From Anaerolineae bacterium (GTDB lineage: Bacteria; Chloroflexota; Anaerolineae; Anaerolineales; Villigracilaceae): a DNA stretch of 34,614 nt. Shown piece after piece: positions 12,125 to 29,010 of this stretch. Location: assembly GCA_018648605.1 (NCBI GenBank), contig JABGQU010000015.1, forward strand, positions 1 through 34,614, in the 5' to 3' direction. Both the position numbers and the translations under genes were made by a program. Positions within the stretch are counted from its first letter, which is position 1, and each line of letters starts with the position of its first letter. The notes under the pieces are model-generated. The model was not told the DNA's origin. It saw nothing but the letters and a program-made list of their open reading frames with translations, and ran no database searches.

Positions 12125-12931
12125 ATGAAGAAACGAAGTTGGCAGGGGCTTTTGCCCCTGCTCCTACTGATCGTTGGTTGCACCGGATGCACCGGAACAC
12201 CTGCCACAACGCCAGCACCTGCCTCTGAAGCCGCGCCCGTACAAGCAGAAAGTTCTCCCACAGATACCGGCAGTATTGAAGGTGTGGTCGTTCCTGCACA
12301 GCAATCCACATTGAGTTTTCTTGTGGGCGGGAGCGTTTCAGCGCTCAATATTGCTGAAGGCGATCTTGTTCAAGCTGGCGATGCCCTCATCACGCTCTCC
12401 ACACCAGAATTGGATAGCGTAGTCTCGATGACCGAATCAAGTCTCGATGCCGCTGTAGCAGATCTGCAATATTGGCTACTGCCGCGCAAATATAAACCAC
12501 CTGAGCGCCGCTGGTTGGCAGAAGATCGTGTGGAAGCAGCAAAAGCGACTGTTGAAACTGCGCGTGCCATGCAAGCGCAGCAAACCTTGCTGGCTCCCTA
12601 TGCTGCCACAGTGATCAACACCTACTTTGCTTCAGGTGAGGTCGTGAATCCCTTACAGGTTGTCATATTACTCGCCGATCTTGAAAATCTCAAGATCGAA
12701 ACCAGCGATCTCAGCGAGCGAGATGTGGTCAATGTGAAAATCGGACAGCGCGCTCTCGTCTATATCGAAGCCTTCGATCTTGAAGTAGGGGGCAAAGTAA
12801 CCGCGATTGCCACGCTGGCAGATACTAGCACGAACGATGTGCTGTACACTGCCACGATCGAGTTAAATGAAACTCCAGCAAATTTGCGCTGGGGCATGAG
12901 TGTAACTATAGATTTTGAAACAAACGAATAG
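12125..12931 (+). CDS. Lipoprotein adaptor (HlyD/membrane-fusion family) 2
   Basis: The 268-residue protein has a lipoprotein signal ending in IVGC (Cys19; Cys22 is an alternative). It shares the layout of the preceding adaptor and nearly the same segments ETSDLSERDVVNVKIGQ and NLRWGMSVTI. The helical hairpin (about 100-150) contains an odd WLLPRKYKPPERRWL stretch absent from adaptor 1. It starts 7 bases after adaptor 1 and its 3' end overlaps the next gene by 17 bases. It may form mixed complexes with adaptor 1. The paralogy is clear; mixed assembly is inference. Confidence 0.87.
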   Translation: MKKRSWQGLLPLLLLIVGCTGCTGTPATTPAPASEAAPVQAESSPTDTGSIEGVVVPAQQSTLSFLVGGSVSALNIAEGDLVQAGDALITLSTPELDSVVSMTESSLDAAVADLQYWLLPRKYKPPERRWLAEDRVEAAKATVETARAMQAQQTLLAPYAATVINTYFASGEVVNPLQVVILLADLENLKIETSDLSERDVVNVKIGQRALVYIEAFDLEVGGKVTAIATLADTSTNDVLYTATIELNETPANLRWGMSVTIDFETNE

Positions 12932-13916
12932 CGTCCCTCCACCTCAAGATAGCAAGCGAGATGATCGGTCTCTTTGGAGACAGGTCGTCTCGCTTTTTGC
13001 ATGGAACCGCGATAGCAAAATCCTGTTGAGCATCTTCTTCCTGACCATCGGATTGATCATCTATGTTTGGTGGCCCCTTGCCGAAGAATTGCTTTCTTAT
13101 ATTGATTGGACGGGAAGCTGGTGGCTCTATATGGATTGGCTGCTCCTCGGCATCTTCCTCTTTATGAGCATCGCCATCGTATCGCGCGCGGACCTTCGGC
13201 TTGATTCCGTTACCATACTGGTTGCCGCCCTTGGGGGGTTGGTGATCGAATCCTGGGGAACGCAGACCAATCTTTGGCATTATTACACCGCTGAACGCCC
13301 CCCGCTCTGGATCATTCCTGCCTGGCCCATCGCCACCCTAACCATTAATCGGATTGTGTTGGTTTTGGATGTGCTATTTAAAAACAAAAATGCGCAGTTC
13401 CTGAGCGGAGCGACCGACAGGGAGCGCAGTCAAAGGGCGGTTTCTCCCAGTACCTCGTCCTTCGACTACACCGACCCTGGGTTTCGATACGGGCTTCGCC
13501 CTACTCAACCATCAGCATCGCCTCCGTTCAGGAACTGGGGTTTACTGAAAACTGCATACTGGCTACTATTTACTGGTTTCTTCGCGCTCATGCTCTACTT
13601 CGTCGCGCCGACCTTCGATAAATCCTATACGCTACTATCAATATTACTTGTTGCATTGCTTATCATCACCCCCACCGATTATCGCCTCGCTCTGCTGACC
13701 TTCATTGCCGGAGCTGGGTTGGGATATTTTCTCGAACTCTGGGGAACCACCCGCGAATGCTGGACCTATTACACATTCCAGAAACCGCCCCTTTTTGCCG
13801 TTCTCGCACATGGGATGGCAGCCGTCGCCTTCTGGCGGACGGAATTATTGGTGAAGATGGTTTGGAGCAAAATAAAACCACGTCGTTTCTTCGCTGAAAA
13901 AATAGCCGGGGATTGA
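12915..13916 (+). CDS. Internally duplicated multi-pass membrane protein, unknown function, with in-frame repeat insertion
   Basis: The 333-residue protein starts at a TTG overlapping the adaptor gene by 17 bases; no better start exists before the first helix. It has about eight hydrophobic segments in two halves with the same motif: ESWGT-x5-W-x-YYT-x3-PPL at 112-131 and ELWGT-x5-W-x-YYT-x3-PPL at 274-293, with identical 19-residue spacing. The halves look like a tandem duplication. Residues 161-208, exactly the region between them, are not membrane-like and are encoded by a palindromic repeat inserted in frame (13395-13537). The conserved Glu, Trp, Tyr and Pro residues near the membrane could form a binding or catalytic site. 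No family name recognised. Its place at the end of the efflux operon suggests co-expression. Confidence 0.75.
   Translation: MKQTNSVPPPQDSKRDDRSLWRQVVSLFAWNRDSKILLSIFFLTIGLIIYVWWPLAEELLSYIDWTGSWWLYMDWLLLGIFLFMSIAIVSRADLRLDSVTILVAALGGLVIESWGTQTNLWHYYTAERPPLWIIPAWPIATLTINRIVLVLDVLFKNKNAQFLSGATDRERSQRAVSPSTSSFDYTDPGFRYGLRPTQPSASPPFRNWGLLKTAYWLLFTGFFALMLYFVAPTFDKSYTLLSILLVALLIITPTDYRLALLTFIAGAGLGYFLELWGTTRECWTYYTFQKPPLFAVLAHGMAAVAFWRTELLVKMVWSKIKPRRFFAEKIAGD
13395..13537 (+). repeat. Palindromic intergenic-type repeat inserted in frame in a coding sequence
   Basis: The ends are inverted: CAGTTCCTGAGCGGAG (13395-13410) and CTCCGTTCAGGAACTG (13522-13537), 15 of 16 bases complementary. The inner part includes GGGCTTCGCCC. 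A related element with TGAGCGGAG...CCGCTCAGGAACTG ends lies between genes at 27995-28090, so this is a repeat family of the genome. Here it is read through as 48 codons. Confidence 0.8.
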
Positions 13917-18026: not shown

Positions 18027-19786
18027 GAAGAGAATACGCTTGGCGTTCGACCACTATCGTAAGTATCTTTGCGCTAATCGGAATTGCGATCATCGTGCAG
18101 ATGGTGCGTATCCAAATCAGCCCTGAAGCAGCCGATTTTCGTGACCTTGTACAACGTAATAAAGGCTGGGTTGAAACTGTCTTCCCTGCGCGTGGCGAAA
18201 TTTATGACCGCAACGGAAATTTAATCGCAGGCAACCAAACTGTCTTTGAAATTGGCGTCACGTTGGAACAAGTGGAAAATCCACAGAGCATCGCGGAAAC
18301 ACTCACCACCATTCTTGATGCGGACTACGTTAACATCCTCGACAAAATCAACAATGTCACTGAAGAGCAGATCTATGTCATGTTGGTCGATTATGTCTCA
18401 GTTGAAGATGCGCAAGAGATAGAACGCATCAAACTCGCTCTTGAAGAAGAAAATGCTGAGAAAACAGGAGAGGGTCTAAGAAGCCTCGCCGGGCTGCACT
18501 TCCGCGAACATCTTGCCCGCAGCTATCCTGAAAAAAGCATCGCTTCAAATATCATCGGCTTTGTTAATCAATCAGAACGCGGTTTTTTCGGGATCGAAGA
18601 AAAATATAACGATCTCCTGGCTGGCAATCCCGTCCAGGTTTGGATCCCGGCAGACCCCAATCGTGTTGAGGAAGTCCCCCATGTCCCCGATGGGACAACG
18701 CTAATTCTGACCATCGACCGTGAGCTCCAAGCCGCAACCGAAAATATCCTCGATCGATCTTTATACGATTACGGTGCAGAAGCTGGCACGATCGTCATCA
18801 TGAATCCGCGCAATGGTGAAATTTTGGCAATGGCATCCACCCCACGCTTAAATCTAACTGACCTCTCTGACTATAATTTGATTTTCGATAGTGCCAGTGA
18901 ATTTAACCGCGCCGTGAATATGCCTTATGAACCCGGCTCGGTATTCAAAATCCTGACTATGGCTGCGGCACTTGATCTTGGCGTCGTTACCCCAAATACC
19001 ACATATAACGACACTGGCTTCTACGAAATTGGCGGCGCAACAATCCGCAACTGGGATAATAATGCCTGGGGCCTTCAAGATATGACGGGCTGCTTGCGTC
19101 ACTCACTCAATGTTTGTCTGGCACGTATCGCTGTTCAGATGGGCACAGATGATTTTTATGGGTATATGAATCGTTTCGGGATCGGGCATCCGACCGGGAT
19201 TGACTTAAGTGGAGAAGCCGGTGGCAGGCTCCGGGTGCCGGGCGATTCGGATTGGTACTCCGTCGATCTTGCGACCAATTCTTTTGGGCAAGGTGTCACG
19301 GCAACCCCTATCCAATTAATGATGGCAGCTTCTTCTATTGCTAACGAAGGCACAATGGTTACACCGCATCTGCTTTACGGCATGGTGCGCGATAATAAAC
19401 AATATAATTTCCCACCCCAGGATGCTGGGCGCCCGATCTCGCGTGAAACGGCAATTGTACTGAACGAAATGCTGGCTAACTCTCTTAATGTAGAAGGTTC
19501 TCAGGCAACACTCCCTGATTATCGTCTGGTTGGCAAAACAGGCACTGCTGAAATCCCAACAGAATACGGGAGCTATTCAAACGCACAAACCAATGCATCT
19601 TTCATTGGCTGGGGTCCGGTGGACGACCCGCAATTCATGATCTATGTTTGGCTTGAAAAACCAACCTTATCTATTTGGGCTTCTTATACAGCTGCCCCCG
19701 TTTTCGCAGACGTTGCTGAGATAACCACGCAAATACTAAATATCCCGCCCGATCTGATCCGCCTACAATACGCGGCAGGGCAATAA
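18023..19786 (+). CDS. ftsI: Penicillin-binding protein, septal transpeptidase
   Basis: The 587-residue class B PBP has one N-terminal membrane helix (about 10-30), the pedestal domain beginning VFPARGEIYDRNGNLIAGN, and a transpeptidase domain with the catalytic S306-x-x-K309 in EPGSVFKILT, S361-L-N and K505-T-G in GKTGTAEIP. It cross-links septal peptidoglycan and pairs with FtsW. It has no C-terminal PASTA repeats. The start ATG overlaps the ftsL stop. murE, which often follows ftsI, is missing here; a short repeat and murF come next. Confidence 0.96.
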   Translation: MRREYAWRSTTIVSIFALIGIAIIVQMVRIQISPEAADFRDLVQRNKGWVETVFPARGEIYDRNGNLIAGNQTVFEIGVTLEQVENPQSIAETLTTILDADYVNILDKINNVTEEQIYVMLVDYVSVEDAQEIERIKLALEEENAEKTGEGLRSLAGLHFREHLARSYPEKSIASNIIGFVNQSERGFFGIEEKYNDLLAGNPVQVWIPADPNRVEEVPHVPDGTTLILTIDRELQAATENILDRSLYDYGAEAGTIVIMNPRNGEILAMASTPRLNLTDLSDYNLIFDSASEFNRAVNMPYEPGSVFKILTMAAALDLGVVTPNTTYNDTGFYEIGGATIRNWDNNAWGLQDMTGCLRHSLNVCLARIAVQMGTDDFYGYMNRFGIGHPTGIDLSGEAGGRLRVPGDSDWYSVDLATNSFGQGVTATPIQLMMAASSIANEGTMVTPHLLYGMVRDNKQYNFPPQDAGRPISRETAIVLNEMLANSLNVEGSQATLPDYRLVGKTGTAEIPTEYGSYSNAQTNASFIGWGPVDDPQFMIYVWLEKPTLSIWASYTAAPVFADVAEITTQILNIPPDLIRLQYAAGQ

Positions 19787-26439: not shown

Positions 26440-27786
26440 ATGACACACGTACACTTCATCGGCATCGGGGGCAGCGGACTTTCCGCGATCGCCCGCCTCC
26501 TTCAGGAGAGCGGAACAACGGTCACGGGTTCAGACCGCGAGCACTCGCCTTTTGTCGATGATCTACGTGAAATTGGTATCACCGCATATATCGGGCATGC
26601 CGCTGAACGGATAACGGGCGCAGACCTGGTCGTCCGCTCGTCCGCCATTCCCGATCACAATGTCGAAGTGGTGGCAGCACGAGCTGCAGGCATCCCCGTC
26701 TACAAACGTTCCGATTATCTCGGTAGCTTGATGGAAGACAAGATCGGCATCGCTATCGCTGGCACGCACGGAAAAACATCTACCACTGCAATGATGGCCT
26801 GGACTTTAACAGAACTTGGAGAAGATCCCTCCTTTATTGTGGGCGGTGTCATTGATGGCATGAACGTGAATGCCCGCGCGGGTAAGGGCGAAACCTTTGT
26901 TATCGAAGCGGACGAGTACGACCGCATGTTCCTCGGCCTGAAACCGACCATCGGTATCGTCACCAATCTTGAACACGACCACCCCGATATCTATCCGACA
27001 GCCGAGAGCTTCCGTGAAGCCTTTGTCAATTTCGTCAGCTTACTCCCTGAAAACGGTGTGCTCATCGCTTGTGGTGATGACGCTGGAGCAGCGGATTTGG
27101 TGAAAGATGCAAATGTAAAAACAATACTATACGGTCTTTCGGAGAGCAATGCCCAATCAAATTCTCGTGGCGGATTCGATTTTGAATTCCAGTCGGCCAA
27201 GGTCTCGTTGCAGGTTCCAGGGATGCACAATGTCTTAAATGCGCTAGCTGTAATGAGTGTAATTGCCTACTTGGGATTATCCCTCAAAGATGCAGCAGAT
27301 GCACTGGGACGCTTCGCCGGAACCGGACGCCGCTTCGAGTTGCTCGGCGAGATCAACGGAATTTCGGTCTATGACGATTACGCCCACCACCCCACCGAGA
27401 TCCGCGCGACTTTGGCAGCCGCGCGCGCCCGACACCCCGAATCCCGGATTTGGGTCGTCTGGCAACCCCACACCTACTCGCGGACGCAGCTTCTCTTCGA
27501 AGAGTTCGCTCAAGCCTTTGGCGATGCTGACCAAGTCATTGTGGTCGAAGTCTACAAATCTCGTGAGCCGGAACAAGATTTTTCGTCCGCGCTGGTTGTG
27601 GAAGCCATGCAACACCCCTCAGCAAAATTTATCGCTGGGCTAAAAGAAACAAGTCATTATTTGATTAGTAAGCTTAAATCCAATGATATATTGCTCGTTC
27701 TCTCGGCTGGCGACGCAAACGAAATCAATCAAGACGTATTGAAAGCCTTGAACGTTTTGGCAAATCAGGAAAGGAAGAGAAGATGA
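26440..27786 (+). CDS. murC: UDP-MurNAc--L-alanine ligase
   Basis: The 448-residue Mur ligase adds L-Ala to UDP-MurNAc, the first amino acid step. It has VHFIGIGGSGLSAIARLL (UDP site), SDREHSPF, the ATP loop AGTHGKTSTT at 107-116, VIEADEYDRMF, NLEHDHPDIY and DDYAHHPTEIRATL, all typical of MurC. The stop overlaps the next small ORF by four bases (ATGA). Confidence 0.96.
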   Translation: MTHVHFIGIGGSGLSAIARLLQESGTTVTGSDREHSPFVDDLREIGITAYIGHAAERITGADLVVRSSAIPDHNVEVVAARAAGIPVYKRSDYLGSLMEDKIGIAIAGTHGKTSTTAMMAWTLTELGEDPSFIVGGVIDGMNVNARAGKGETFVIEADEYDRMFLGLKPTIGIVTNLEHDHPDIYPTAESFREAFVNFVSLLPENGVLIACGDDAGAADLVKDANVKTILYGLSESNAQSNSRGGFDFEFQSAKVSLQVPGMHNVLNALAVMSVIAYLGLSLKDAADALGRFAGTGRRFELLGEINGISVYDDYAHHPTEIRATLAAARARHPESRIWVVWQPHTYSRTQLLFEEFAQAFGDADQVIVVEVYKSREPEQDFSSALVVEAMQHPSAKFIAGLKETSHYLISKLKSNDILLVLSAGDANEINQDVLKALNVLANQERKRR

Positions 27787-27986: not shown

Positions 27987-27994
27987 ATATTAGT

Positions 27995-28090
27995 CTCTGA
28001 GCGGAGCCGAAGGCATAGACGAAGAGCGGTACTAGAAGAACCGTCCTTCGTCTACAGGCTCAAAAAGCAGTCGCCTTCCGCTCAGGAACT
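27995..28090 (+). repeat. Palindromic repeat between orf67 and murB
   Basis: The outer arms TGAGCGGA...AAGGC and GCCTTCCGCTCA pair apart from a few inserted bases (GCCG), and inner arms TAGACGAAG (28016-28024) and CTTCGTCTA (28046-28054 region) are perfectly complementary, around a GGT...ACC core. It shares the GAGCGGAG and CTCAGGAACTG ends with the element inserted in the membrane-protein gene at 13395-13537. Confidence 0.8.
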
Positions 28091-28101
28091 GTAGAGAAAC
28101 A

Positions 28102-29010
28102 ATGACAACACTATCCATTTCCACCCTCCGTGACGCCTTTGGCGATAAGTTGCAAGAGAATATTTCTCTGGCGGCCTATACCTCTGCGCGGATCGGTGGA
28201 GATGCGAATGCGTTGGTTATCGCTAATTCTGCTGATGAGTTGGCAGAGATCGTCTCTCAGCTTTGGGATATGGACGCCTCTTATTTATTGCTTGGCGGCG
28301 GCTCAAATCTGCTCGTCAGTGATGAAGGTTTTCGCGGCGTGGTCGTGCTGAACAAAGCCAAGGCAATTCGCTTTATCGAAAACGAAAGCCCTTCTGTGAT
28401 CGCAGAATCGGGCGTAATGATGAGTAGACTTGCCAATCAAGCCGCAACGCGTGGCTTGGCCGGGCTGGAGTGGGCAGCGACTGTCCCCGGAACGGTGGGC
28501 GGCGCAGTATATGGCAATGCGGGTGCTTTCGATGGCGATATGGCAGGCAATTTAATCTACGTTGAGCTACTAACAGAAGCCGGGCGCGAATACTGGGATG
28601 TTTCGGATTTGGCGTACGCTTATCGTAGCAGCAAATTGAAAAGGGATGCGGTTAAATTCGCGATCCTTTCGGCAGAGATGGCGTTGAAAAAGGGCGAGCA
28701 AGCCCAAATCCAGGAGCGGATGCGGTCTTTCATCCAAAAGAGAAAAGATACGCAGCCCCCTGGCGCAAGTATGGGCTCGATGTTCAAAAATCCTGAAGGC
28801 GATTACGCCGGACGGTTGATAGAAGCAGCCGGGTTAAAAGGCACGAGGATCGGCAATGTGGAGATCAGTACCGTTCACGCAAATTTTTTCGTCAATCATG
28901 GTGAAACGAAAGCATCGGATGTAAGAGCGTTGATCGAGTTGGCGCAAAAGACGGTAAAAGAAAAGTTTGATGTGTCTTTAGAACTAGAAATAGAAATTGT
29001 TGGTGAATAA
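28102..29010 (+). CDS. murB: UDP-N-acetylenolpyruvoylglucosamine reductase
   Basis: The 302-residue FAD enzyme reduces enolpyruvyl-UDP-GlcNAc to UDP-MurNAc with NADPH. Visible: AYTSARIGGDANALV, the FAD loop LLGGGSNLLVSDEGF, GLEWAATVPGTVGGAVYGNAGA, and GSMFKNPEGDYAGRLIE with the catalytic Ser before MFKNP. The length and the missing insertions fit the shorter (type II) MurB of Gram-positive-like bacteria. ddl starts one base after its stop. A palindromic repeat lies before it, so its ribosome binding site (GTAGAGAAAC) is weak. Confidence 0.96.
   Translation: MTTLSISTLRDAFGDKLQENISLAAYTSARIGGDANALVIANSADELAEIVSQLWDMDASYLLLGGGSNLLVSDEGFRGVVVLNKAKAIRFIENESPSVIAESGVMMSRLANQAATRGLAGLEWAATVPGTVGGAVYGNAGAFDGDMAGNLIYVELLTEAGREYWDVSDLAYAYRSSKLKRDAVKFAILSAEMALKKGEQAQIQERMRSFIQKRKDTQPPGASMGSMFKNPEGDYAGRLIEAAGLKGTRIGNVEISTVHANFFVNHGETKASDVRALIELAQKTVKEKFDVSLELEIEIVGE

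Follow-up and report, generated by a model that had tools for sequence, protein, structure and literature searches.

A dispersed palindromic element lying in frame in the linker of a duplicated membrane protein, and different repeats in the same linker among Anaerolineae relatives

The window analysed here is the whole stretch of 34,614 nucleotides from contig JABGQU010000015.1 of an Anaerolineae bacterium. It contains a membrane-protein gene composed of two homologous halves, and a palindromic element lies in the linker between them. The features are as follows.

12915..13916, + strand: membrane-protein gene with two homologous halves, a single 333-aa ORF, TTG start assumed
12990..13361, + strand: first half (residues 26-149, approximately); conservation seen across the 23 rows of alignment A1
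13362..13559, + strand: linker, residues 150-215, 66 aa (18-60 aa in the other complete linkers)
13395..13537, + strand: palindromic dispersed element, in frame, residues 161-208, with inverted ends, copies and a fold
13395..13410, + strand: left arm, terminal inverted repeat, CAGTTCCTGAGCGGAG
13522..13537, - strand: right arm, terminal inverted repeat, CTCCGTTCAGGAACTG, matching the left arm at 15/16 positions
13551..13880, + strand: second half, about residues 213-322, conserved in alignment A1
27991..28091, + strand: second element copy in the window, intergenic, 78 bits, E 3e-21

The 333-aa protein matched no Pfam family at E<=0.1, and a fold search against the PDB returned five hits, none at E<=0.001. 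The host gene had matches in 35 of 60 genomes and, across the class, in 12 of 199, the window's own genome being included in both counts, and at 22 loci of named records titled Anaerolineae, Anaerolineales, Anaerolinea sp., Chloroflexi or Candidatus Desulfolinea nitratireducens. The two halves each align separately with most orthologues. The AF2 model (mean pLDDT 74.9) shows two helical halves, and pLDDT falls below 50 at linker residues 179-202. The dN/dS of the first half was 0.04-0.10 against five relatives (dS 1.0-3.0), and that of the second half was 0.06-0.08 in three of five pairs, dS being saturated in the other two; with dS at about 1 or above, these values are rough. The low ratios, computed from the sequences, suggest that both halves of the host protein are under purifying selection.

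The initial annotation had named as an alternative that the ORF might be two genes split by the insertion. Both halves lie in one ORF in 50 of the 52 rows compared, which indicates a single gene; of the two exceptions, L051 stops where its contig ends, and in L063 the frame is broken, though in the second half and not in the linker. In L063 (3067-3810), a stop lies within the second half of the orthologue and homology resumes past it. In four distant homologues (L148, L149, L150 and L151, from G210 and G175), a single ORF of 286-296 aa has the two profile halves the other way round, as one would expect of a duplicated domain. Fusion of two neighbouring genes, with the linker as an old intergenic spacer holding the usual spacer repeats, would agree with the tandem duplication of the host protein and with the resemblance of many linkers to intergenic DNA. 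However, no two-gene state was seen among those rows, and even the distant homologues, which belong to another family, have their swapped halves in a single ORF. Such an origin is already disfavoured, and we regard it as very improbable.

The element itself was largely as first described. Its 16-bp inverted ends are near-perfect, and the same-ended relative placed between genes near 28.0 kb is present, flanked by ORFs 26440-27786 and 28102-29010. The fold of the 143-base element has a z of -5.06 against dinucleotide shuffles, and 0 of 200 shuffles folded as well. The absence of a stop or frameshift was borne out, since the ORF is open throughout the element, and so was the addition of about 48 residues between the duplicated halves, as the residues encoded by the element fall inside the linker. 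The length of 143 is not divisible by three, so that inserting exactly these bases into an in-frame linker would have shifted the reading frame; we infer that some further small length change must have accompanied the 143-bp insertion. At 13480-13511 the window's copy contains an extra stretch, GGTTTCGATACGGGCTTCGCCCTACTCAACCA, a close version of which occurs in L002; a reverse-complement-like form of this type of stretch is found in L003 and a diverged form in L026. This extra stretch gives the element the appearance of a two-repeat mosaic.

The genome-wide search for copies proposed in the initial annotation found the element dispersed in the window's own genome (G000), a draft of 3.26 Mb in 211 contigs, where 58 distinct copies were read in 55 loci, three of them shorter than 70 bp. 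With BLAST, the element hit G000 64 times at E<=10, a figure that includes the self match and counts both strands. With a covariance model derived from 28 aligned copies, which have common terminal inverted ends, at least 146 matches were obtained at E<=0.01, again over both strands, from the 150 candidates scored among 930. When 20 genomes were searched with the model at this threshold, all nine genomes of the genus, G000 included, had matches (two in G002, and at least 10 to at least 146 in the remaining ones), as did three of the 11 genomes outside the genus. Among 44 exact-ended copies, with ends CAGT/ACTG, 43 are 93-150 bp long and one is 78 bp. The flanks of the 44 copies are 70% A+T, and their target-site duplications show no excess over expectation: nine were observed and 6.1 expected at length 1, none and 2.5 at length 2, and one and 0.6 at length 3, with none observed at lengths 4-9. 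Otherwise, the family is mostly intergenic. GTAG/CGTC REPs have an associated Y1 transposase (RAYT) flanked by the repeat, and a comparable link was looked for here. Y1_Tnp gave 32 matches, distributed over all nine genus genomes; among the 12 fetched as loci, one contained an element, separated from the transposase-like gene by about 500 bp and an intervening ORF. That locus, L158 on contig C84 of G000, has the Y1-transposase-like gene and the element copy at 127-540 and 1035-1147.

Three of the 58 copies in G000 lie in real genes: the host gene, a glycosyltransferase gene (L025, 674-2137; contig C116) and a MoeA gene (L024, 419-1666; contig C157). In the glycosyltransferase, the element is in frame between the N- and C-terminal Pfam domains. 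In MoeA, a 58-bp partial copy is in frame in the region of the C-terminal domain, where the insert contributes 10 residues without counterpart in 1uz5, and a gap of 1xi8 follows a few residues later. The three intragenic copies use two frames, reading QFLSG in the window and VPERSEAQS in L024 and L025. The other G000 ORFs through element copies matched no Pfam family (L007, L012, L018, two in L125, L006, L008, L010, L026, L027, L028, L118 and the second frame of L025), a check that covered all but a 67-aa antisense ORF of L024 and in which the lack of a family is not proof that there is no gene. Two further candidates, L016 and L021, were rejected as captures, being N-terminal start artefacts of real genes. 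In other genomes, 58 non-self repeat copies were examined in two sets, with 0 of 18 and 1 of 40 in Pfam-supported ORFs. The single case is a PD40 beta-propeller gene of G031 (L183, 572-1897; contig C15), in which the repeat from the G031 linker occurs twice in frame (18465-18561 and 19169-19199 of C15). Matches to Pfam families were absent for the ORFs of L095, L103 (two), L111 and L110, and for eight of 10 ORFs in a further set, in which the match of L198 was below the curated cut-off.

The linker was then compared across all 33 genomes with a complete host gene, among the 35 matching of 60; G040, in which the contig ends in the gene, and G033, with one weak partial match, were left out. Before the test, 28 genomes other than G000 were split by eye into 12 with repeat-like linkers and 16 without, and four further linkers (G039, G050, G051 and G057) were also searched. 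Because the repeat-like set had been picked by eye beforehand, all 33 genomes are reported. Linkers were searched against their own genomes at E<=0.01 as joint queries. The 12 repeat-like linkers gave at least 379 own-genome matches, 12 of them self (cross-matches among linkers counted; at most 35 candidates scored per genome), the 16 others gave 18 matches, of which 16 were self, and the four further linkers gave 17, of which four were self. Among the matches listed, DNA of a genome's own linker recurs elsewhere in that genome in 15 of 33 genomes. These include 11 of the 12 in the repeat-like set (G031, G008, G015, G042, G045, G006, G009, G014, G023, G055 and G025), two of the 16 (G010 and G032, one match each), one of the four (G051, 12 matches) and G000 with the window's element. 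No own-genome copy was among the matches listed for G013, a repeat-like linker; overall, 18 of 33 linkers had no repeat copy among the matches listed, including 14 of the 16 and three of the four. As a control, coding DNA of equal length upstream in the same 12 genes was searched, and none of the 12 segments had a copy elsewhere in its own genome; the 16 control matches comprised 12 at the gene itself and four made by another genome's segment, one of these lying in the second half of the G031 gene.

By eye, 11 of the copy-positive linkers are palindromic (G000, G006, G008, G009, G014, G015, G023, G031, G042, G045 and G055). The non-palindromic positives are short direct or pyrimidine-rich stretches in G025, G051 and G010 and a 24-base piece in G032. 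Some matches are short and weak, as for G006, which has three at E 3e-4 to 6e-4. We estimate that an occupancy of 15 of 33 genomes is far above what would be expected by chance from the few intragenic copies per genome, shared ancestry lowering the number of independent events.

A CCACGAAG-like superfamily is common to several linkers, with pairs among L040, L041, L053, L073 and L078, so that not every genome represents an independent event. This common palindrome is what would be seen if one ancient palindrome had entered the linker once, been inherited and decayed differently in each lineage, so that the families only seem different. In contrast, the linkers L031 (G000), L032 (G006), L039 (G031), L046 (G015), L057 (G055) and L060 (G045) are mutually unpaired at E<=0.01, although every one of them recurs in its own genome, and the linkers of G000, G006 and G008, all of one genus, likewise do not pair with each other (blastn, E<=0.01). 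We therefore consider a single ancient entry improbable. Different repeat families, several of them unrelated, occupy the same linker in relatives, and the linker looks like a recurrent landing place.

The initial annotation had also called for a comparison with orthologous linkers. In an all-against-all blastn of linkers, the orthologues differ at this place, none pairing with the window's linker at E<=0.01; the refuting case named there, a linker sequence shared with distant orthologues, was thus not borne out. Complete linkers range from 18 to 66 residues, that of the window being the 66-residue one, and many resemble repeats that have been translated. A net positive charge was found in 44 of 45 distinct linkers. 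Positively charged stretches of membrane proteins tend to lie on the cytoplasmic side (the positive-inside rule), and by this rule the charge suggests that the linker of the host protein is cytoplasmic. No close relative with an otherwise identical, element-free linker was found. A nested history, in which the window's element would have entered an older relic resembling the one in G006, was dropped because the left flank of the element aligned with the linkers of relatives no better than shuffles did.

Hairpins with z<=-2 were found in 14 of 45 distinct linkers, as against 0 of 45 upstream and one of 45 downstream segments, and in Wilcoxon tests among these related rows the linker hairpins differed from upstream at p 1e-5 and from downstream at 2e-4. 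The hairpin and copy tests were at odds in some cases: L042 (-2.6) and L049 (-2.5) have hairpins without copies, whereas G014 (-0.7), G045 (-1.5) and G025 (-0.2) have copies despite a weak hairpin. The main rival to tolerance is targeted insertion, in which the linker DNA attracts repeats, for example with a resident palindrome serving as the target for the next repeat or for its mobilising enzyme. The presence of several repeat families at one place and the A+T-rich flanks of the 44 element copies are consistent with targeting, and the available part of one paper reports repeated palindromes as targets of insertion sequences in other bacteria (PMC1525189). On the other hand, targeting accords less well with the 18 linkers in which no repeat copy was among the matches listed, and the nested reading of the left flank did no better than shuffles. 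We consider targeting unlikely, though the least unlikely of the rivals.

Our observations also bear on whether the captured element could be an artefact, that is, an assembly chimera or a chance open frame in a pseudogene. The genome is a draft in 211 contigs, and roughly one in three of all frames through the element is open in any case (86 of 264; 26% in shuffles). However, the second half of the gene, which follows the insert, is conserved and has low dN/dS values where these could be measured, and comparable cases are seen in other genomes; an artefact of either kind is hardly credible.

Taken together, we think it likely that a genus-wide repeat landed in a tolerant linker, that the frame stayed open, and that different families were captured likewise, time after time, over the history of the lineage. 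A copy of a dispersed palindromic repeat would have landed in the linker of a duplicated membrane protein, a segment under little constraint and probably on the cytoplasmic side, and a small further length change would have kept the frame open, so that translation of the insert may add about 48 residues to the protein. The linker would tolerate many kinds of open-frame filler, and the insert would be neutral. Insertions presumably occur in many places, and those in genes would survive only where the frame is open and the protein indifferent; recurrence at this site would thus reflect selection rather than targeted insertion. A linker that tolerates filler, between halves under purifying selection, would be expected to show different repeat families repeatedly. 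The most plausible view is that the linker is a permissive tether, positively charged and cytoplasmic, in which repeats are captured when in frame, while frame-breaking ones are purged.

A stronger version of this idea is that the linker is a standing sink for selfish palindromes, which unrelated families invade serially across related genera, overwriting each other; we put this forward tentatively and think it rather doubtful. A palindrome already in place may draw in its successor, and the gene would then be a natural trap in which repeat activity is recorded. If the sink reading is true, a conserved membrane protein has a section whose sequence is set by whichever repeat happens to be active in the lineage.

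The element resembles several known systems in part. It has terminal inverted repeats like those of MITEs (15 of 16 positions here); unlike MITEs, its 44 copies show no excess of target-site duplications, although for some elements listed as MITEs the target-site duplication is given as unknown. Like GTAG/CGTC REPs, it is a palindromic repeat inside coding regions; however, REPs are described in the accessible text as 20-40 bp long with GTAG or CGTC at one end, whereas the window's element has CAGT-type ends and is 93-150 bp in 43 of 44 copies. Intragenic REPs have been described in several species, and flexible linkers or loops were suggested to make them neutral, according to the available portion of PMC3733652. 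The enterobacterial ERIC and RU are small mobile repeats that can be fused in frame and become part of proteins, putative membrane proteins among them (PMC2759123, available in part). Those cases, as far as that source extends, concern many small ORFs and gene ends, whereas the window's site is the interior of a conserved gene.

A further counterpart is the group of protein-coding palindromic elements of Rickettsia (RPE), to which the initial annotation had likened the element. In the available parts of PMC10969869, PMC3733652 and PMC2229807, RPE are dispersed palindromes of about 100-150 bp that lie in frame in unrelated genes as well as between genes and are described as encoding a conserved peptide. 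The likeness stands for a long dispersed palindrome (about 100-150 bp) with in-frame copies in unrelated real genes, and the copies in two other genes of G000 support it as a way of working. It does not extend to a single conserved peptide frame: RPE are described there as encoding one conserved peptide, whereas the window's element uses two frames among three intragenic copies. The element also belongs to another bacterial group, and the comparison is one of way of working, not of sequence. The filling of one linker by different families is absent from the RPE descriptions in the available parts of those three papers.

In-frame palindromes are thus already known, and flexible linkers had been suggested as their sites (PMC3733652, as far as available). 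In our literature search, which covered subscription journals thinly, we found neither a linker reported to be colonised by several repeat families nor protein-coding palindromes reported from Anaerolineae. As far as the literature was searched, the bacterial group and the colonisation of one linker by several families are new. These findings also serve as a warning that linkers of orthologous proteins are not necessarily homologous. In-frame palindromes in proteins have so far been scattered cases from few groups; many related genomes with different repeat families in one linker provide a natural comparative series, which could be used to date repeat activity and to test the neutrality of inserts, and which bears on whether selection or DNA targeting determines where selfish DNA becomes protein.
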